Assembly: GCA_025059995.1 (NCBI GenBank)
Contig: JANXCF010000001.1
Coordinates: 372,001 to 436,000 of the forward strand
Origin: Leptospiraceae bacterium
GTDB lineage: Bacteria; Spirochaetota; Leptospiria; Leptospirales; Leptonemataceae
Length of the DNA stretch: 64,000 nucleotides
Direction: 5' to 3'
In this document: positions 11,527 through 64,000 of the stretch, in pieces
Layout of the letters: each line of letters starts with the position of its first letter
Numbering within the stretch: the first letter of the stretch is position 1
Position numbers and translations under genes: made by a program
The notes under the pieces: model-generated
Told to the model about the DNA's origin: nothing
The model's input: only the letters and a program-made list of their open reading frames with translations
Databases searched by the model: none

Positions 11527-12717
11527 CTATTCTTTGTTTCTCAAAATGATTTTTTGTTTTTCTAAATTCGCCATTTTTTCTTTGCTAATGTTGAGTTCTT
11601 TCAAAATTTCTTCTGTATGTTGTCCTAATTTTGGTGGTGGTGAGTGAGTTTTTGTTTCGAGATTCGAAAACCGAAAGGGAATTCTTGGAAGTTTGAGGAT
11701 TCCTATTTCTTTGTCATTAATTTCAACGAACATCTGAGTTTGTATAAAGTGAGGATGTTCCATCACTTCATGAAGTTTTAAAATTGGAAAGACACAACTA
11801 TTCGGATTTTGAAAAAGAAAATCTAAGTCTTTATAGGTTTTGTTGATAAAATATTTTTGTAATTCCCTTTTGACATATTCATAATTACCATTAATCGTTA
11901 ATTCCCATAAATCTTCTCTTTGAATCAGTCTTAAAAAAACTTGAAGGAACATAGGTTCTAAAGCAGCAACGACTATATATCGTTTATCTTTACATTCATA
12001 GACTTGATAATTAGGAAGCAATCCCGCTAAGGGTGTTTTGTTTTTATCATAGGTTTTGCTTCCCAAAAGATCCCCAATAGCAAGCATAGCAACAGGCAAT
12101 GTTGAATTCGTTATACTCACATCGATAAAGCTCCCTTGACCTGTTCGTTCACGATGATACAACGCAAAACCTATCTGAGCCAAAGCGCTATAACTTCCCA
12201 TTACATCAGCAATTTGAACGGCAGGAAGAGTAGGTCTGGTTTCACTAAGCAAATCTAAAACTCCTGATATTGCCAAGTAATTCGCATCATGCCCTGCATA
12301 ATCTTTATAGATGCTTGTAGCTCCAAAACCAGAAATCGAAACGTAGATAATTTTAGGATTGATTTTTGCAGCTTCTTCATACCCAAGACCAATCTTTTCC
12401 ATCATACCAGGACGAAATCCCTCAACAAGAATATCCACCTTGGGAAGAAGTTTTTTTAGGATTTCTACTCCTTCAGCTCGTTTATAATTGATGGCTAAGG
12501 ATTTCTTATTTCGATTCAAAAGATAAAAGTAAGTGTTTTGATTCGAATTAGAAAAAGTAGTTCCCAATTTTCTTGTCCCATCAAAAGCGACAGGATGTTC
12601 CACTTTTATGACTTCAGCCCCAAGTTCTGACAAATACAACGTGCACAAAGGACCAGGAAGCAACGTGCTAAAATCTAAGACTCTTATGCCTTCTAATAAT
12701 AATTTTTTTTCATTCAT
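11527..12717 (-). CDS. Family III CoA-transferase / alpha-methylacyl-CoA racemase-like enzyme
   Basis: This is a 396-residue CaiB/BaiF-family protein. The N-terminus GIRVLDFSTLLPGPLCT and ADVIK-type segment (LGAEVIKVEHP) bind CoA. The segment GHDANYLAISGVLDLL contains the catalytic-region Asp and closely follows the alpha-methylacyl-CoA racemase pattern (GHDINYLALSG). The enzyme may racemise 2-methyl branched acyl-CoAs or move CoA between acids. Racemase is favoured by that motif. It follows the SNF2 gene by 65 bases on the same strand. Confidence 0.85.
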   Translation of the reverse strand: MNEKKLLLEGIRVLDFSTLLPGPLCTLYLSELGAEVIKVEHPVAFDGTRKLGTTFSNSNQNTYFYLLNRNKKSLAINYKRAEGVEILKKLLPKVDILVEGFRPGMMEKIGLGYEEAAKINPKIIYVSISGFGATSIYKDYAGHDANYLAISGVLDLLSETRPTLPAVQIADVMGSYSALAQIGFALYHRERTGQGSFIDVSITNSTLPVAMLAIGDLLGSKTYDKNKTPLAGLLPNYQVYECKDKRYIVVAALEPMFLQVFLRLIQREDLWELTINGNYEYVKRELQKYFINKTYKDLDFLFQNPNSCVFPILKLHEVMEHPHFIQTQMFVEINDKEIGILKLPRIPFRFSNLETKTHSPPPKLGQHTEEILKELNISKEKMANLEKQKIILRNKE

Positions 12718-12782
12718 TTTTTTTATTATCTAAGTATGACAAATTGATTAGTTTTACAAATATTTTTTGTGCTCATCTAATC

Positions 12783-15584
12783 TTAAAGGATCCAATAGAT
12801 TTGGAAGATCTCTACTTGAGTTTGTATATAATTAGATTGGTTAAGTTCATTCAATTTTTGTTGGAGTTCTAGTTTCGTTTGAAGGATAGCGTTTTCAGTT
12901 CTTGTTAATACGGCTTTTCGTTCGGATGTGGGATTGAGTTTATATCTGAGTTTTTCAATGTCCTTTTTTTCTTCTAAACTTCGTATTTTCTTTCCATAAC
13001 TAATTTCTATTTTGTATTGTTCTTTTTTGTACAGGTCTTTGAATTCTTCGATCCAAGTGGGATTTTCTTCTTGTAAGGTTTTTTGTAGCCACTCTTTGGC
13101 TCTTATAGAAATGCCTATCAGCTTTTCCTTTTCGGATTTTGTGATGGGGTGAAAAGAATATGACTTTTTGGCAAAGTCTTTCAAAAATAAATCTTCGAGC
13201 TCCAATTTTTTTTGAAGCGAAAAATGATCTCCTTTTTTTGTTTTTGAAGAACTAACAACCGATAGCAACTCTTTTCTTAGAACAACATCTTTGTTTTTAT
13301 AAGTAATCAAAAAAACAATGAATATCCCTTTTTTTTGTAAGGTTTCTGCTTGAAGTTTGATAATAGCATGTTTGTGAGGGTGATTCAAATAAAAATTTAA
13401 AGCTTCATCCACAAGGGGATGTCCAACCGCCAAAAATTCAAATTGTTCATTCTCCAAAGCAATTTCTGCATCAAAGATAGCCAGTTTTTCTTGACTCGGA
13501 ATCTTATAGATATGAACTTTCTGTTTATTCGGCTTCTTGATTGTTTGGAACTTTTCTAATTTCCATGAGGATGGATTCTCAGATAAATAATGATTTGTTA
13601 GCTTCTCAATGTGAAGGTTATCTACTTCTCTCTCTTGGTTTGTGATTTTATAGTAATCCGCAAAATTAAAATCCATCACTTTGGGGGATATGAGCTCAGA
13701 TAGAAGTTGGTAAGATTTTTTGATGGTTTCGATTTGACTTTCGATTTTTTCCTCAAGTTCCTTTTGATGGATTTTCCCCGAGACAAAATCCATAACTAAT
13801 TGAGGTAAATTGATTTCTTCTTCGATTGTTCCCAGAAGGATATCTGAAGGTCCAATGGATTCTTCAAATATCCGAATTTTATTTTCTAAGATATGTAGCA
13901 CCTTTTCTGCTACCGTATTCCTTGTGGAGAAATTCAAAATCAAAACATCGCTTTTCTGCCCGAAACGATGTATCCTTCCAATCCTTTGTTCCATTTTGAG
14001 GGGTGACCATGGAAGATCATAATTGATCAAAACATTTGCAAACTGAAGATTTCTACCTTCTCCACCTGCTTCGGTAGAAATCAAAATTTCCCCTTTTTCT
14101 TTGAATTCCTGAATTTCTTTTTCTTTTTGTTGTTGATTTAAACTCCCATGAAAAATATTACATCGATAAGAACTTAACATCTCTAACAAATATTCTTGTG
14201 TGGTTCGAAATTGGGTGAAAATTACGAACTTTTTGTAACCATTCTTTTTCAAGAAGTCAATTGTTTCTTTTAGCTTCTGTACTTTTGTATCAAACTTGAT
14301 TTTCTTTCCAATCGAAATCAAGCGTGATAGCGTGAGGATTTCTTTTCTTAGATTTTGGAGGGAATAGGAATTTTGATCAAAATAACTTAGGTTTTCAACT
14401 AGTTCATCTTCGTTTTCGTTGTATTCTATTTGCTCTTCCCAATCCCAATCTTCTTCAATTTGTTTACGATGATTTTGATAGATTCTTGTTTCTAACAAAA
14501 ACCTTCTCTTTTCTAAAGCCTTCACCAGGGCTTTTGTAGAAGAATCTAACAATTTTTGAAAAACAATCATGATAAAGCCAATTGCTCGATTTTGTTGTTC
14601 CTTAGAAAGATTGTATTCTTTTTTTACGTATTCCGTTACTTCGTCATAGAAAAGCCTTTCTTCTTGAGAAAGATCAAGCTTGACGGTTTTTACTATCCTT
14701 TTCGTAAATCCCCCTACTTCGGTTTTTCTCCTTCGAATTAGAATTTTCTCGATCTTAGAACGAAGATGAGAGATATTCTCTCCTTGACGTGATGAGATTA
14801 TATATTCTTGAAAAAAAGAATGTTCCGGACCAAGAAGATGTGGATCAATTAGCTTTATTAGATAATAAAGTTCTTCTAGTTTTCCACGAAAGGGTGTAGC
14901 ACTCAAGAGCAATATACCCTCCGTAGTCTTCGAGATTTTCTCTGCAAAAGAGTATGCTTGAGTGATTTTGTTATAATCCCTTCGGAGTCTATGAGCTTCA
15001 TCGAAAATAATCAAATCCCACTTTATTTTCAATAGAGTTTCATAATACTTTGGATTTTTTATAAAATCTATTGATGTTATGATTTTGTAAATTTTTTTAG
15101 ATAAAATATCTCTAAAGTTTTTACTATTGATAATAACAAAATCTTCATTGAATTTATTTTTGAGTTCTTGTTGCCATTGGATTTGTAGGGGTGCTGGCAC
15201 AACTATTAAAAAATTTTTGTAATTTTTCCTAAATATTAATTCTTTTAAAATCAGACCTGCTTCGATTGTTTTTCCTAATCCTACTTCATCAGCGAGAAGA
15301 AATCTAGGTTTGTATGCGTGTATTACTCGATGAGTAGCTTCGATTTGATGAGGAAGCAATCGAGTCCTCGAATTCGATAAACTCGATAATTTGTGATATA
15401 CGTAATGTAAGCGTATACGATGAGCTATCAGTGAATTCATTGCTTGATGGAGTTCTTTTTTATTTTGGACAATATAAAATTTATCTTCAGAAATCTCATC
15501 GTGTTGATGATCTTGTGGTAAGGAAATCGAAACACTTTCCTTTCGAATAGTTCGATCAAACTCGAAAATGTCAAAAGAATTCAT
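12783..15584 (-). CDS. SNF2-family helicase-like ATPase (RapA-like)
   Basis: The 933-residue protein has the two-lobe SNF2 motor: Q-region LLPHQIEA (about 76-83), Walker [13 protein letters not shown] (99-110), DEAH at about 195-198, SATPF motif III, and [11 protein letters not shown] motif VI. The [12 protein letters not shown] form and overall length fit the RapA branch, which recycles RNA polymerase or remodels nucleic-acid complexes. The roughly 350-residue C-terminal part is charged and helical, with no domain I recognise. It overlaps the NUDIX gene by four bases (ATGA). No methylase or other defence genes are nearby. Confidence 0.88.
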
Positions 15585-56097: not shown

Positions 56098-56736
56098 ATG
56101 AGTTCACTACAAAAACTGTTAGAAGGAAACAAAAAGTTTTTGCAGCAAATTCAAAAGGATCACCCTGAGATTTTTCATCAATTAGCCGAAAGTCAGAAAC
56201 CTGAGTTTCTGTGGATTGGTTGTTCTGATTCACGAGTTCCTCCAGAGGTGATTACGAATCAACCACCTGGAACTATTTTTGTTCATAGAAACATCGCGAA
56301 TCAAATTTCACCTAATGATATGAGTGTGCTAAGTATTATTTATTTTTCTTTGAACTATTTAAAAATTAAGAACATCATTGTTTGTGGGCATACAAACTGC
56401 GGAGGAGTTTTTGCATCCCTCAGTTTAGCAGAAAATAAGGGTTCTTATGGGTTTCTCGAAAACTGGCTACATCCCATCAAAGAATACTACAATAGCATCA
56501 AGAAAGAATTATTGCAGGAAGAAAATGTGCATGAAGTGAATGAGCAAAACCAAAAACACGTGGCAGATAAATTATCAGAGAAAAATGTCCTCAAACAGAT
56601 GGAAGTTTTTAAAAAGTTGAGTATCGTTCAAGAATATTTGCAGAAAGAAAACACAACATTGAATGTATATGGCATGATTTATGACGTAAGAAATGGAGAA
56701 TTACGATTATTAAAAGAAGAACAAATAAAATCTTAA
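56098..56736 (+). CDS. Beta-carbonic anhydrase
   Basis: The 212-residue enzyme interconverts CO2 and bicarbonate. Zinc ligands are C42, H98 and C101 (IGCSDSRVP and CGHTNCGG), with the D44/R46 dyad present and the PGTIFVHRNIANQI strand typical of beta class. Length matches the family. A Shine-Dalgarno sequence (AGAGGAG) precedes the ATG, unlike most neighbours. It likely feeds bicarbonate to carboxylases or helps pH balance. Confidence 0.95.
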   Translation: MSSLQKLLEGNKKFLQQIQKDHPEIFHQLAESQKPEFLWIGCSDSRVPPEVITNQPPGTIFVHRNIANQISPNDMSVLSIIYFSLNYLKIKNIIVCGHTNCGGVFASLSLAENKGSYGFLENWLHPIKEYYNSIKKELLQEENVHEVNEQNQKHVADKLSEKNVLKQMEVFKKLSIVQEYLQKENTTLNVYGMIYDVRNGELRLLKEEQIKS

Positions 56737-56790: not shown

Positions 56791-57177
56791 ATGCAGTTAG
56801 AAGATTTAAAGCAAGATGGGAAAATTCTAAAATTTTCCAAAGGGGAAAAAATCTATGATCAGAAGAGTTATTTGTCAGATATAAAAGTATTCTATATCCT
56901 TAAAGGTCAAGTATTGTTAAGAAAGAAATATACATCTCTTGTAAAAGATGAGTTTCTCTTGCAAGAGGGGGAGTTATTTGGGTTTCTGGAAATATATCAT
57001 AGCAAAATTCGTTTGATGGAAGCCGAAGCAAAAACAGATGTGGAGGTTATTGGAATGGATCGAATTACGTTTGAAAGATTGATTATCTCAAATATGGAAC
57101 TATCTCTCAAAGTCATAAGAAATCTTAGTAAAATTCTAAGAACGGCGAATCAACGAATCAAACACTTACCCAAATAG
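56791..57177 (+). CDS. Degenerate cyclic-nucleotide-binding domain protein
   Basis: The 128-residue protein aligns with the neighbouring cNMP-binding protein: VFYILKGQVLLRKK, then LQEGELFGFLEIYHSKIRLMEAEA. The usual FGE reads FGF, so the ribose-binding Glu is missing, although an Arg is at the phosphate position. It may bind weakly or not at all and pair with its neighbour. It has no DNA-binding helix-turn-helix. The next gene starts four bases downstream. Confidence 0.75.
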   Translation: MQLEDLKQDGKILKFSKGEKIYDQKSYLSDIKVFYILKGQVLLRKKYTSLVKDEFLLQEGELFGFLEIYHSKIRLMEAEAKTDVEVIGMDRITFERLIISNMELSLKVIRNLSKILRTANQRIKHLPK

Positions 57178-57181
57178 AAGC

Positions 57182-57637
57182 ATGGAAAAGGAAAAGCAAG
57201 AATGGGATTTGCTCAAGTTGGGGCTAGAAGGTGAGCAAGCCATAACTAATGAACTGTTCTTTAAGTTTGGGAGGACTTACGAACCTAAGCAAGTTATCCT
57301 AAAAGAAGGAGATAAAGGAAAAGATGTTTATTTGATTTTGTCTGGAAGAGTAGTTGTTGCAGAGAAATTGGCATCCTCTAATCAATACAAGGTTCTTACT
57401 ACTCTCGGTCCTGGTGAGATTTTTGGGGAAATGGCAATGTTTGATGATCAGCCCAGATCTGCGACCTTAGTAGCAATTGAGCATTGTAAAATTTTAGTTT
57501 TGAGTCCTGAGAACTTCGAAAGAATTTTCAGAACCCATCCAAGATGGGCGCTAAAAATTGTAGCAGCTCTTTGTAAAAGAATTCAGAATGCGTTTGAACA
57601 GATCGATTCTTATTACAGAGGTAGTAATAAAACATGA
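57182..57637 (+). CDS. Cyclic-nucleotide-binding domain protein
   Basis: The 151-residue protein is a single cNMP-binding domain: DVYLILSGRVVVAEKL, then GPGEIFGEMAMFDDQPRSATLVA, with E83 for the ribose hydroxyl and R92 for the cyclic phosphate. It lacks an obvious helix-turn-helix, so it should act through protein contact. The unknown gene downstream overlaps by four bases (ATGA) and is the likely partner. With the adenylate cyclase at 43.4-47.1 kb it supports cAMP signalling. Confidence 0.9.
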   Translation: MEKEKQEWDLLKLGLEGEQAITNELFFKFGRTYEPKQVILKEGDKGKDVYLILSGRVVVAEKLASSNQYKVLTTLGPGEIFGEMAMFDDQPRSATLVAIEHCKILVLSPENFERIFRTHPRWALKIVAALCKRIQNAFEQIDSYYRGSNKT

Positions 57638-59277: not shown

Positions 59278-59715
59278 GTGAAAGTTCAATTCCTTAAATC
59301 CATAATGGTATTGACGTTGGTTCTGGCTTTGCCTTTTGGTCTGGCTGCTCAAGAAAAAACCAAGACAGATGCTAAAAAAGCAGAAATGAAAAAAGTATTT
59401 GTTAGTTTGGGCACAGATCAAGGACTAAGAACCGGCATGGCATTGAATTTTTCAAGGATGTCCCTCAAAAATGGGAGCCCTACGACTCTATGGTTAAATG
59501 CTGAAGGAGTCAAGCTTGCTGATGCAAACGCAGCTGATAGTGAACAAAGAATGATGCTAAAAGAATTTATCTCTAAAGGCGGGAAAGTATATGTATGCCC
59601 CGTGTCATCTGCTAAGTTAGGAGTGACAAAACTGATCGATGGGGCTGAATTTTCTAAGTTCGAGATCGTATATGAACAAATCAAAGATCCAAACGTTATA
59701 TATTTAAGCTGGTAA
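59278..59715 (+). CDS. Exported DsrE-family protein
   Basis: The 145-residue protein has a signal peptide (MKVQFLKSIMVLTLVLALPFGLAAQ, likely cut after GLAA) and a DsrE/peroxiredoxin-like fold. VFVSLGTDQGLRTGMALNFS and PTTLWLNAEGVKLAD fit, as does a conserved-type Cys in GGKVYVCPVSSAKLG. DsrE relatives carry or sense sulphur through such cysteines. Most are cytoplasmic, and this one is exported. It starts with GTG. Its codon and residue usage (Ala, Gly rich) differ from the neighbours, fitting high expression. It lies about 150 bases before the NikK-like gene. Confidence 0.85.
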   Translation: MKVQFLKSIMVLTLVLALPFGLAAQEKTKTDAKKAEMKKVFVSLGTDQGLRTGMALNFSRMSLKNGSPTTLWLNAEGVKLADANAADSEQRMMLKEFISKGGKVYVCPVSSAKLGVTKLIDGAEFSKFEIVYEQIKDPNVIYLSW

Positions 59716-59866: not shown

Positions 59867-60580
59867 ATGAAAAAGTATTACTTTATATTCTACTTAACGT
59901 CAATATTTCTCGATAGTGATTTATTGTTATCTCATGACCTTTGGTTTGAGTCCGTATCTCAATACTGGATACTCAAATATGGACATATAGAAAATCATAA
60001 AAACCAGGAACATCAAGAAAGTTTAAAAGAAATACCCTATAAGAAAGAACAAATACTAAGATTATCTTGTGTTCACAAATCCCAAAAATCCATAGAAGAG
60101 ATAAACAATTTTTCTGCTCCTGTGAAGTTATCTTACTGTCCTGTATTTTGGGTAGAGTTTACTTCTTTTTATTGGCATCAAACCGTAGAGGGACTAAAAC
60201 AATCTGAACGCATTTCGATTCAAAAACAAGATGTGCTCGATAGCTGGGAATCGATTGAAACTCTCAAGCAAATTCAAGAGTGGAATGATCACTTATCAAA
60301 TCCTCTCTCTGAAAGCTTAGAGATCATACCTCTGGAAAATCCTTTTCGAAAAAAATTAGGAGAAAAAATACAAATCAAAATTGTTTATAAAAAAAATCCA
60401 GCAAAAAATATCCCTGTATCTTATTACGACGATGTTCGGGGAAATACGGATGAAGAAGGAATAATTCGTGTTCGGCTAAGGAAAGCAGGGCTACAAGTCA
60501 TCAAAGCTACTTTGACAGATTTTGGCTATAACCCAAAAAGAATTATCACAGCCAGCTTAGTTTTTCAACTTCACAATTAA
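59867..60580 (+). CDS. NikK-like periplasmic component (DUF4198 type)
   Basis: The 237-residue protein has a signal peptide ending LLLS, so the mature chain would start His23 (HDLWFES). A DUF4198-like protein with a carboxypeptidase-regulatory-like C-terminal fold (NIPVSYYDDVRGNTDEEGIIRVRLRKAG) follows. Proteins beginning HDFW/HEFWLE are found with ECF nickel/cobalt transporters, where they are called NikK. An N-terminal His can bind Ni(II) with its own amine. It starts the operon with the NikL-barrel fusion 18 bases downstream. Confidence 0.75.
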   Translation: MKKYYFIFYLTSIFLDSDLLLSHDLWFESVSQYWILKYGHIENHKNQEHQESLKEIPYKKEQILRLSCVHKSQKSIEEINNFSAPVKLSYCPVFWVEFTSFYWHQTVEGLKQSERISIQKQDVLDSWESIETLKQIQEWNDHLSNPLSESLEIIPLENPFRKKLGEKIQIKIVYKKNPAKNIPVSYYDDVRGNTDEEGIIRVRLRKAGLQVIKATLTDFGYNPKRIITASLVFQLHN

Positions 60581-60598
60581 AGAAAGAAGGAGGAGAAA

Positions 60599-62293
60599 AT
60601 GAAAAAAATTTTACTATTTTTATTTACATTACTTTTCCATCAAACTTTAATATTTTCCCATAGTGTTTCCGTTAAAATGTTCGATGCACCTTCAAAGGTT
60701 TTTCAAATTCAGTTTTCTGATGGAACTTATTATGCTTTTGAAAAATGTGAAATGAAGTTTTTAGTCAACAATGAGTATAGAACCATTCAAGTTATTTATA
60801 CAAATGAGTCTGGGAAATTAGCATTTTATCCCGAAAAAACAGGCAAACATCGATTGCAGTGTTTTAGAGAAGATGGACATGGGGTTTTTTATGAATTTGA
60901 CGTAAAAGAAATCACAGCAACAAAAATTGAAACTTCTACTCATAACTATTCAGAATACTATGGTGTTATAGCGATTCTGGTTTTACTGGGGATTGGTGTG
61001 TTTTATTTTCTGAAAAAGAGAACTTCGTCATCTTTGACAATCTTAATGCTGTTTTTTACTTATAATTCTCTTTTGGCACATCATGGTATAGCATCTCTGG
61101 GTAGTGTGGGAATTCGTGGACCTGGTGCTGCAGTGGAAACTTCTGCACAAGGGGTCCTTCCTCAAAATACCTCTATTTTCTTGCTTAAGTATGATGAACC
61201 AGTGTTCAAAACCTATACTCCCGAAAGAGACGAAGAAATACCTTATAATCGATTTTTACTTTATGGTTTAGGTTATGGTTTTACTTCTTATTTTAGTGTA
61301 TATGCTTTTATTCCTTATAACGAAAAGGTTATTGAAAATAATCAATTCAATACTTCTGGTTTTGCGGATTTAAGTATTTATGCTGTGTTAGGTTTTAAGT
61401 ATGACGAAACATTTTATTGGAATCCTTCTCAAGAGAGTTTAGATGATTTGCAGGATTATCATTTCTCAGTGTATGCAGGAACAAGTTTACCCACGGGAAA
61501 TCCAAACGTAAAAAATGTGGATAACGAGATTGACCCGGGATTTTCGTTAGGTTTTGGAAAACCCTATTACATCTTAGGAGGAACGATTTCAAAGTTTTAT
61601 GATGCCTTAACGTGGAATTTTGAGGTTTCTTACTTAATGTTTCAATCTTATCGTTATGCGAATAACATAGAAGCAAAGTTTGGTGATGAATTCCGAGGCA
61701 ACTTAGCATTGATTTATAGATTTTATTTCAATGAAAAACAAAGTTGGAGGTTTGATGGGTTTTTAGAATTCAACTATCTAAAGATTTTACCGGATGAAGA
61801 AAAAGGAGTATCTCAAAATACTCTTCTACAATTTATAGCAAATCAAACTTCAACACCCATCAATCAAGAATTAATCCTTCAACAAATAACTTTCAGTAAA
61901 ATCCCTCCATGGAAACTCGAAGAAACCTTAGTAGGAATTGAACAAACAAGTTTTATTCCGCCTTCGAATATAGGCGATGTCGTTTTATCTACATTAGGGC
62001 TTGGTGAAGAACCTAGTGGAACAGAGGTTTTGTATCTAACCCCTGGTTTTAGGGTTTATTTTAGAAAAATGAGTTTGGGATTAGGAGTGAAATTTCCAGT
62101 TTATTCAAATCCTAATCAACCAAACTTAACTGAAATTTACATAATTCGAACCTTGCGGGAAGTCATCGATGGAACTCCCCTTGATGTAAGAGATATTCTC
62201 TGGGAATACAAGATTTTAGAAAAACATTTATATCAAGGTGCGGAAGGAACTGAGAAATACCGATTGATTTTATCGTTGTCGTTTATCATATAA
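60599..62293 (+). CDS. NikL-like domain fused to an outer-membrane barrel
   Basis: The 564-residue protein has signal peptide 1-20 (mature His21), a small beta domain (21-118), a membrane helix (about 121-138), KKR, a second signal-like hydrophobic stretch (about 143-160, ending LLA) and HHG at 161-163. The remaining ~400 residues have alternating aromatic beta strands and a terminal Phe/Ile strand (LILSLSFII) like an outer-membrane barrel. The barrel part resembles transporter-type OMPs seen beside heavy-metal systems (HHG, GPGA, LP motifs). The first half matches NikL, a TM-anchored helper of nickel ECF systems. A strong AGGAGGAGAAA ribosome site precedes the ATG. Confidence 0.75.
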   Translation: MKKILLFLFTLLFHQTLIFSHSVSVKMFDAPSKVFQIQFSDGTYYAFEKCEMKFLVNNEYRTIQVIYTNESGKLAFYPEKTGKHRLQCFREDGHGVFYEFDVKEITATKIETSTHNYSEYYGVIAILVLLGIGVFYFLKKRTSSSLTILMLFFTYNSLLAHHGIASLGSVGIRGPGAAVETSAQGVLPQNTSIFLLKYDEPVFKTYTPERDEEIPYNRFLLYGLGYGFTSYFSVYAFIPYNEKVIENNQFNTSGFADLSIYAVLGFKYDETFYWNPSQESLDDLQDYHFSVYAGTSLPTGNPNVKNVDNEIDPGFSLGFGKPYYILGGTISKFYDALTWNFEVSYLMFQSYRYANNIEAKFGDEFRGNLALIYRFYFNEKQSWRFDGFLEFNYLKILPDEEKGVSQNTLLQFIANQTSTPINQELILQQITFSKIPPWKLEETLVGIEQTSFIPPSNIGDVVLSTLGLGEEPSGTEVLYLTPGFRVYFRKMSLGLGVKFPVYSNPNQPNLTEIYIIRTLREVIDGTPLDVRDILWEYKILEKHLYQGAEGTEKYRLILSLSFII

Positions 62294-62297
62294 AGAT

Positions 62298-62945
62298 ATG
62301 CATGTTCCGGACGGATTTTTATCGCCTCAAACTTATTTAAGTCTATATGCAATCAATCTTCCAATATGGATTTACTCAATAAAGAGATTTTCGAAAAGTG
62401 TCCGTCCGGATGAGCTTCCTCGTTTAGCCCTCAGTTCAGGTTTTGTTTTTATTTTGACCTCAATTCAGTTTCCCATTATTGGAGGAACCACAGTTCATCT
62501 TTTAGGAATAGTCATAACGACTTTACTTTTTGGTGTGATCAAAACATATTTGATTTACACAGTAGTTTTTCTTTTGCAGGCGACTCTTTTGGGTATGGGT
62601 GGGGTTACGTCATTGCCATTAAATACCTTTGCGATGGGATTTTTGGGTCCTCTTTCAGTTTATTTTCTTGATAAGACGTTGAAAAATATTCTTCCTCAGA
62701 CTTTTTTAATCATTCTTTTAAATTTTGTTTCGATTTTTTTGGTGGTTTTATTTACCAGTTTTGTTTTAGGAATACAGCCAGATATCGCAAAAGGAAAAGA
62801 TGGAAATCCATTGTATTTTCCTTTTCGTTTCCCTGTTGTTTTTTCGGCAATGTTGATTTCTCATTTACCAATTATGGTTTTGGAATCAGTAGTTTCGAAT
62901 TTATTTATGAAGTTTGCAAAAAAATTAGAATTCTATCAGAAATGA
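62298..62945 (+). CDS. cbiM: Nickel/cobalt ECF transporter substrate-binding membrane protein NikM/CbiM
   Basis: The 215-residue protein has about seven membrane helices and the signature MHVPDGFL, GGTTVHLLG and NTFAMGFLGP. His2 and His67 match the nickel/cobalt site known in NikM/CbiM, where the amino terminus and His2 also bind metal. The start is certain because MHxPDGF must be at the N-terminus. It follows the fusion gene by four bases and overlaps cbiQ. The lack of a cbiN gene and the presence of NikK/NikL-like genes favour nickel. Confidence 0.93.
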   Translation: MHVPDGFLSPQTYLSLYAINLPIWIYSIKRFSKSVRPDELPRLALSSGFVFILTSIQFPIIGGTTVHLLGIVITTLLFGVIKTYLIYTVVFLLQATLLGMGGVTSLPLNTFAMGFLGPLSVYFLDKTLKNILPQTFLIILLNFVSIFLVVLFTSFVLGIQPDIAKGKDGNPLYFPFRFPVVFSAMLISHLPIMVLESVVSNLFMKFAKKLEFYQK

Positions 62946-63532
62946 TTCTTTTAGTTTTTCTTGTGGGAGTTGTTTTATTGTCGTTGATACAGGATTGGCA
63001 GATTGCTTTTCTATTGTTTTTGATTTTGATTTTTTTGAATAAAAAAAAGTTAAATCAAAAGAATTTCTGGATGAAATGGATATTCATTTTGATCATAACC
63101 CAAATTACGGTTTTTTCGTATGTTGTTGTGAAATACCTTTATGAAAGAATTTTTTTGTGGGAGTTTTATCTCCTTTTTCAATTGAGAGTGATGAATATTT
63201 ATTTGTTTTCTTTTTGGTTTTTTGAGCGTTTTTCTTTTTTTGATGTGTTGAGTTTTTCAAAAGATTTGATTATTTTTTTTAGTATTGCTATAAGCGTAAT
63301 TTTTCATTATTCAAGAGTTATTAAGGAATATCCTGAAATTTTAAAAAGTAGAGGTTATAAACTTTCAGGAATCAAAGAAAATCTTTTATTTTATAGCAAT
63401 TTTTTAATAAATTTATTTATAAAATTTTCTAAAGAAATAGAAGAAATTTCGCAAATATTAGAATCTCGAGGAGTTTTTTATTCTTATGACTCAACCTATA
63501 GTTCAAGTTCAAAAGATAAAGTTTTTTTATAA
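62942..63532 (+). CDS. cbiQ: ECF transporter T component CbiQ/NikQ
   Basis: The 196-residue protein has four or five membrane helices and two Ser-Arg-Gly motifs (EILKSRGYKLSG and QILESRGVFYSY) of the type that couple T components to the ATPase. It links NikM to CbiO. It overlaps the upstream gene by ATGA and the ATPase gene by 47 bases. Confidence 0.88.
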   Translation: MILLVFLVGVVLLSLIQDWQIAFLLFLILIFLNKKKLNQKNFWMKWIFILIITQITVFSYVVVKYLYERIFLWEFYLLFQLRVMNIYLFSFWFFERFSFFDVLSFSKDLIIFFSIAISVIFHYSRVIKEYPEILKSRGYKLSGIKENLLFYSNFLINLFIKFSKEIEEISQILESRGVFYSYDSTYSSSSKDKVFL

Positions 63533-64000
63533 AAATTCACAAAATCCCATTTTTCATCATTTAGAATTTTCTATACAACCTGGTCAAAAGATTGCTTTGA
63601 TGGGAGTCAATGGTTCAGGAAAATCAACATTATTAAAGATTTTGAATGGAATCTTATTTCCTCAAGAAGGAGAATATTTTTTTGATCAACAAAAAATTAC
63701 AAAGCAAAGACTAAAAAACAAAGAGTTTCATCTTGAATTCCGAAAGCGTTGTGCACTTTTGTTCCAAAATTTCGAATTTATGCTGTTCCATTTTAAAGTG
63801 ATTGATGATTTGATATTCACTTTGAAAATCTTGGATTATTCCAAAGTTGAAATTCAAAGAAGATTAGAAATTTGGAGTGAGCGTTTTCAAGTTCAAGAAC
63901 TTCTGAATGAAAATCCTCTTTTTTTGAGTAGTGGGCAAAAAAAAAGAGTGGTATTAACTTCTTTGTTTATGTTGGAGGCTGATTTGTTGTTATTGGATGA
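63486..64000 (+). CDS. cbiO: ECF transporter ATP-binding protein CbiO/NikO (5' part)
   Basis: The first 171 codons show an ABC ATPase: Walker A GVNGSGKSTLLK, a Q-loop LLFQNFEFMLF, signature LSSGQKKR and Walker B LLLLDE at the window end. It powers uptake with CbiM and CbiQ. The start at 63486 lies within cbiQ, and the 3' end, including the D- and H-loops, is outside the window. Confidence 0.95.
   Translation, partial: MTQPIVQVQKIKFFYKNSQNPIFHHLEFSIQPGQKIALMGVNGSGKSTLLKILNGILFPQEGEYFFDQQKITKQRLKNKEFHLEFRKRCALLFQNFEFMLFHFKVIDDLIFTLKILDYSKVEIQRRLEIWSERFQVQELLNENPLFLSSGQKKRVVLTSLFMLEADLLLLD

Follow-up and report, generated by a model that had tools for sequence, protein, structure and literature searches.

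A putative NikL–barrel polyprotein in a nickel-type transporter operon of a Leptospiraceae bacterium

At the end of a 64,000-nucleotide stretch of a Leptospiraceae genome (GenBank assembly GCA_025059995.1, contig JANXCF010000001.1, positions 372,001 to 436,000; hereafter, the window), the forward strand encodes a NikK-like protein, a NikL-like domain fused to a predicted outer-membrane barrel, NikM, a NikQ-like protein and NikO, in that order (Table 1). We consider it probable that the fused open reading frame (ORF) encodes a polyprotein with an internal signal peptide, at which signal peptidase would cleave it, and that its products import nickel for a hydrogenase. Sequence data establish that the two parts are fused, that two species share this state and that other relatives have two genes, and they also underlie the apparent loss of an internal ribosome-binding site, the predicted fold and the presence of hydrogenase, signal peptidase and Omp85 genes; cleavage, topology, outer-membrane location and nickel passage through the barrel we infer. 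An initial annotation, made from the DNA letters, had given the same gene order and coordinates and had placed a NikL-like domain and a barrel in one ORF. Both statements held, and the single open frame is repeated in a second genome; NikQ was assigned by position, size and hydrophobicity.

Conservation of the fusion and its two-gene relatives

The genome that contains the window (G000; 2.38 Mb, 17 contigs) carries one copy of the fusion. Its congener G001 also encodes a 564-amino-acid fusion, 52% identical and flanked on both sides by equivalent operon genes, and the joined frame is therefore not a sequencing error. At the sequence level, the NikL–barrel fusion can be considered confirmed as genuine and more than a product of chance. 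A third congener, G003, has two genes: NikL (140 amino acids) ends within the ATGA that starts the barrel, and the barrel possesses an ordinary signal peptide, MNQHFLIMILIFFLGNSLFG/HHG (a slash marks a predicted cut). This barrel gene spans two contigs overlapping by exactly 141 bases. Neither the fusion nor the operon was found in the fourth congener, G002.

An initial protein-level contig scan with the whole fusion matched nothing, and relatives were found by a search with a barrel alignment. Among named genomes, it detected the barrel in Hydrogenothermaceae, Aquificaceae, Sulfurihydrogenibium, one Sulfurimonas metagenome-assembled genome (MAG) and one unplaced MAG, usually in the order NikK-NikL-barrel-NikM-NikQ-NikO and often near hypA, hypD, hypE, hypF or nikR. 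Matches, some of them fragments and none of them fused, occurred in 30 of the 136 genomes of the Aquificota set, 12 of the 298 genomes of the Campylobacterota set and 10 of the 80 genomes of the class of G394. Within the window's own phylum (393 genomes), the barrel is confined to G000, G001 and G003, plus one very weak match. Searches of plasmids and viral contigs, as well as a PDB sequence search, returned no relatives.

Forty-two loci were resolved, two of them fused and 40 with a separate barrel gene (Aquificota, Campylobacterota, other MAGs and G003). Every separate gene has its own signal peptide and its own ribosome-binding site (40/40); the NikL stop lies just before or within the barrel start region in 38 of these 40 loci, mostly as overlapping genes, with an overlap of 4 nt being the commonest for the longest possible start. 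Sulfurihydrogenibium (L024) has the reverse of the usual order, with the barrel 5′ of NikL, which argues that NikL and the barrel act as separate proteins. Open frames of 563 and 491 amino acids in G599–G602 were considered as further fusions and rejected as read-through of high-GC sequence; NikL and the barrel are separate genes there, overlapping by GTGA/ATGA.

Judging from these sequences, the barrel regularly accompanies NikKLMQO operons, in Aquificota as in other lineages, and only its fusion, in two congeners, is special. What the initial annotation lacked is that the barrel as such is not confined to this locus. It had also named an outcome that would overturn its reading, namely separate genes in homologues together with a sequencing error here; the separate genes exist, while the error is contradicted by G001.

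Architecture of the fused protein and its junction

Hydropathy of the fused ORF peaks at the anchor helix (residues 117–141), followed by a second, shorter hydrophobic stretch at approximately 143–155 that aligns with the signal peptides of separate barrels. The internal signal peptide, recognized by homology and hydropathy, agrees with the one initially proposed at residues 143–160. The loop between the two segments, KKRTSSS, is assigned to the cytoplasm by the positive-inside rule and is predicted to be a fused remnant of the NikL tail and the signal-peptide n-region. By itself, the NikL assignment of the window copy would be weak (profile NF058648, E 0.005, under the curated cut-off); it is carried by the split relatives aligning with it, whose NikL proteins give 1e-16, 1.5e-12, 1.4e-14 and 1.8e-9 with the same profile, all under the curated cut-off.

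The predicted cut site reads LLA/HHG in the window protein, continuing as HHGIASLG, and VYG precedes HHG in G001. Across the 42 loci, fused ones included, the residue before HHG is Ala in 40 and Gly in two. Since this tally was motif-based, profile-found loci were re-read at the first position of the profile, and HHG was present in all of them. Identity between the fused proteins of G000 and G001 amounts to 25% in the anchor helix, 33% in the internal signal and 81% in the next 31 residues, and the rise between the last two values, which coincides with the predicted cut, is what a signal-peptide cleavage site would give. Together with the small residue at −1 throughout, it favors the cut at LLA/HHG that had been expected from the initial reading.

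The fused ORF begins with a strong ribosome-binding site (−12.2 kcal/mol). Those of the 40 separate barrel genes have a median of −10.3 and a weakest value of −5.8 kcal/mol, and only the two fused genes fall outside this range. Start-like codons do precede HHG in both of them: GTG 27 and TTG 15 codons upstream in the window (−5.5 and −2.9 kcal/mol), TTG 29 and ATG 38 codons upstream in G001 (1.5 and −3.3 kcal/mol). The fusion could thus exist on paper only, the barrel being also translated alone from an internal start as in its relatives, and the window GTG would yield a plausible signal peptide, MFYFLKKR... However, the best candidates of both genes are weaker than every one of the 40 separate barrel genes and lie within the chance range set by start-like in-frame codons along the window ORF (down to −6.3 kcal/mol), and the two species do not have them at matching positions, making a separate internal start improbable. 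Because of this weakness, the barrel in the fused genes has most likely lost its own translation start and kept its signal peptide.

Fold of the barrel

The AlphaFold2 model (35 sequences) contains 12 strands preceded by an N-terminal segment, with a predicted local distance difference test score (pLDDT) of 71.5, mostly 80–93 in the strands, and a predicted template modeling score (pTM) of 0.70. Its best structural match is the COG4313 channel 4rl8 (Z 21.4, 248 residues aligned from model residue 7, root-mean-square deviation 3.0); FapF also matches (Z 19.9), and Foldseek searches were run as well. We therefore predict a 12-strand protein of the COG4313/FapF type, and the barrel initially claimed after residue 160 is borne out by the model and its structural homologs. 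The profile PF13557 recognizes the barrels of L022, L024 and L021 with 28.5, 33.7 and 30.2 bits (gathering cut-off 22) and does not match the window barrel; at a threshold of 0.01, 8 of 11 members match.

TonB-dependent receptors are named for the outer-membrane nickel step in PMC11247825, and such a step had also been mentioned in the initial annotation. The fold gives no indication of it: the model has 12 strands in 404 amino acids and no plug domain match, as against 22 strands and a plug. The N-terminal ~14 residues of the COG4313 structure are folded into the barrel lumen (PMC4493636). By analogy, the HHG terminus would sit in the pore, most easily with a free N-terminus. Both enlarged loops occur only in the two fused proteins and, given a periplasmic N-terminus, would be on the outward-facing side.

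Role of the operon in nickel uptake

A [NiFe] hydrogenase large subunit (PF00374) is encoded in G000, G001 and G003, the three congeners with the operon. The same search found none in G002, which lacks the operon, and no urease was found in any of the four. The hydrogenase genes of G000, accompanied by hypA, B, D, E and F, were read from the sequences at approximately 59–69 kb of contig C1. Nickel import by NikKLMQO/NikKMLQO systems has been demonstrated, and they are required for hydrogenase in Synechocystis (sll0381–0385; PMC5904137) and for urease in Brucella (ure2; PMC2868824). Nickel import by the operon is well, if indirectly, supported by context and would serve the [NiFe] hydrogenase, and nickel or a nickel complex would pass through the barrel. 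The locus had initially been described as one for nickel or cobalt uptake; nickel is favored over cobalt by the hydrogenase co-occurrence.

In the window and in loci L016–L064, all three exported proteins (NikK, NikL and barrel) start with His after the predicted signal peptide. NikK proteins begin with HDLW or HELW at this point, as found with a His-requiring pattern. As the list of His at +1 for NikK and NikL came from such patterns, the NikL claim is based on an alignment instead, in which all 11 of 11 proteins have His as the first residue past the predicted signal peptide. Some residues preceding that His in G001 and G003 (Pro, Asn) make poor signal peptidase sites. The N-terminal His or His-adjacent starts of NikK, NikL, barrel (HHG) and NikM (MH) may constitute a nickel relay. 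We tentatively speculate that the HHG barrel could be a dedicated outer-membrane nickel gate, whose lumenal His-His terminus, freed only by cleavage, would hand nickel to the His starts of NikK and NikL and then to the Met-His of NikM; such an envelope-spanning relay, made partly from one polyprotein, is possible and yet doubtful.

Proposed mechanism and alternative explanations

We suggest that an ancestral six-gene operon, nikK-nikL-barrel-nikM-nikQ-nikO, lost the nikL stop together with the barrel's start and its ribosome-binding site, and that NikL and the barrel would now be translated as one polyprotein. The N-terminal domain of NikL would be exported, its C-terminal helix running inward and leaving the KKR loop in the cytoplasm, and the former signal peptide of the barrel would re-enter the translocon as an internal signal running outward. 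Signal peptidase I would cut after LLA (after VYG in G001). NikL would stay next to NikM in the inner membrane, its tail forming a hairpin, and the freed HHG barrel would reach the outer membrane through the Bam machinery. Outside nickel would then travel to the [NiFe] hydrogenase by way of the barrel, NikK, NikL and the NikM-Q-O transporter. Signal peptidase I and Omp85 are both encoded in the genome.

Several points weigh against this polyprotein mechanism. The internal signal, whose cleavage is predicted, comes after a full protein and not at the chain start, and G000 retains an internal GTG whose ribosome-binding site is of middling strength. The two genomes with the fusion are drafts, and the hydrogenase co-occurrence is based on only four congeners. 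Moreover, hydrophobic or amphipathic substrates are the presumed cargo of the COG4313 channels studied, which are believed to conduct ions poorly (PMC4493636), so the fold by itself does not imply nickel passage.

The draft state of the assemblies could suggest that an error joined two genes, yet two separate assemblies contain the fusion at the above identity, with an identical junction and a signal-peptide-like stretch kept in frame, and we find such an error hardly credible. An uncut chain is very improbable as well: being continuous and having two membrane segments, it would tie inner-membrane NikL covalently to the barrel as a fixed bridge across the periplasm, but only ~31 residues, at most ~11 nm when extended, separate the second segment from strand 1. 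Usual periplasm widths exceed ~11 nm, and cleavage is expected because these residues are unlikely to bridge the periplasm; the initial argument that a single chain cannot easily be anchored in the inner membrane and folded in the outer one was sound. Both the motif at the cut and the HHG start have also been retained, and the COG4313 fold puts the N-terminus inside the lumen (PMC4493636).

Cut or uncut, the barrel might alternatively carry another cargo, such as a hydrophobic compound, a metallophore or another metal, and share the operon for regulation only. The substrates ascribed to its COG4313 relatives (PMC4493636) would fit this, and CbiM-type components serve cobalt too. Still, the barrel is kept beside NikL in Aquificota, Campylobacterota and other lineages, in a nickel-type operon near nikR or hyp genes, and we regard other cargo as unlikely, albeit worth keeping in mind.

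Origin of the fusion

The barrel tree unites both fused barrels in a single clade (100/100), and one fusion event therefore suffices. G003 is placed inside an Aquificota clade (100/98). Grouping G000, G001 and G003 together is rejected for the barrel (approximately unbiased test, p-AU 0.0016) and not rejected for NikM (p 0.296). Vertical descent of the fused and split forms from one operon of the genus was considered and set aside, being rejected by the barrel tree and not by the NikM tree, with long branches; two separate acquisitions within the genus seem likely.

Operon components and neighboring genes

NikM has both the CbiM/NikM profile and the N-terminal MH motif, and is the only CbiM/NikM protein found in the genome. 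The profile search with the NikQ-like protein gave no family match above cut-off, Pfam included. NikO is completed beyond the window (260 amino acids; 9486–10268 of L007, a stretch of the same genome).

Table 1. Features of the operon and of the fused NikL–barrel ORF (window coordinates)
Feature	Position	Strand	Evidence
NikK-like periplasmic protein (DUF4198), 237 aa (amino acids), predicted mature start HDLW	59867..60580	+	PF10670 4.9e-11; equal position in relatives' operons
NikL–barrel fusion ORF, 564 aa	60599..62293	+	single open frame; full-length 52% identical fusion in G001
N-terminal signal segment of NikL, residues 1–20	60599..60658	+	hydropathy; alignment with NikL signal peptides
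NikL periplasmic domain, residues 21–118, starts HSVSV	60659..60952	+	alignment to 9 separate NikL proteins, those tested matching NF058648
Putative inner-membrane anchor helix, residues 119–138	60953..61012	+	19-residue hydropathy 2.29 (G001 2.19)
Short positive loop KKRTSSS, residues 139–145, predicted cytoplasmic	61013..61033	+	sequence; G001 counterpart KFKKKES
Internal signal peptide, residues 146–160, predicted cut LLA/HHG	61034..61078	+	alignment with separate barrels' signal peptides; −1 Ala/Gly; identity step
Predicted 12-strand outer-membrane barrel, 404 aa, N-terminus HHG	61079..62293	+	AlphaFold2 model; COG4313 4rl8 and FapF structural matches
Enlarged strand 9–10 loop, barrel residues 241–312, predicted extracellular	61799..62014	+	alignment; low-confidence helices in model
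Enlarged last loop, barrel residues ~347–380, predicted extracellular	62117..62218	+	alignment; model
NikM substrate-binding component, starts MHVPDGF	62298..62945	+	PF01891 8e-48
NikQ-like T component, 196 aa	62942..63532	+	position, size, hydrophobicity, SRG motif common to relatives' NikQ
NikO ATPase, 5′ part of gene within the window	63486..64000	+	PF00005 (ABC_tran) 2.9e-24; ECF_ATPase models 6e-32 on partial gene

A gene located directly 5′ of the operon (59278–59715, GTG start) encodes a secreted DsrE-like protein (PF02635, 5.4e-6), absent from this place in G001. Further upstream, a carbonic-anhydrase-like protein (56098–56736) is followed by two tandem cyclic-nucleotide-binding-domain-like proteins (56791–57637), all three read from the sequence only. 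Outside the window, the genome encodes an 895-amino-acid TonB-dependent receptor that contains the motif CPNRMDPPS and recalls OprC/NosA-type copper receptors (L007 14255–16942, minus strand; G000:C1 ~440255–442942). It adjoins ExbB-, ExbD- and TonB-like genes (12554–14130), and this region, close to the nickel operon, probably represents a metal system of its own.

Comparison with known systems and significance

The energy-coupling factor (ECF) nickel transporters of Synechocystis (PMC5904137) and Brucella (PMC2868824) share NikK, NikL, NikM, NikQ, NikO and the link to a nickel enzyme with the operon studied here. Such systems are described as having five components, whereas the window operon adds a barrel, fused to NikL; the literature passages searched on these operons make no mention of an outer-membrane barrel as a NikKLMQO component. 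The split operons of Aquificota, Campylobacterota and G003 are alike in operon, barrel, HHG start and signal-peptide position, but have two genes with their own starts and usually an overlap of a few bases. The cytochrome b/c1 polyprotein FbcH of Bradyrhizobium japonicum is cut at an internal signal sequence. The window protein resembles it in that a membrane anchor is followed, within one chain, by an internal signal peptide, as judged by homology and hydropathy; both FbcH products remain in the inner membrane, while the second product here is a predicted outer-membrane barrel. The COG4313 channel Pput2725 (4rl8; PF13557, Phenol_MetA_deg) and FapF (5o65) likewise have 12 strands and an N-terminal segment before strand 1, although the window barrel is at most 13% identical to them and has two enlarged loops, and no metal link is described for those channels. 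The operon type is already known, the barrel is apparently undescribed, and the fusion appears to be a new, lineage-restricted variant.

For ECF-type systems, the passage of nickel across the outer membrane is poorly understood, and a NikL-partnered barrel in several phyla is a concrete candidate for this step. The fusion offers natural evidence that NikL and the barrel belong together, and a polyprotein would entail their production at a fixed 1:1 ratio. It would be a rare case of a bacterial outer-membrane protein synthesized as the C-terminal part of an inner-membrane protein, from which signal peptidase must release it, and it opens the processing of a barrel at an internal signal peptide to direct tests.

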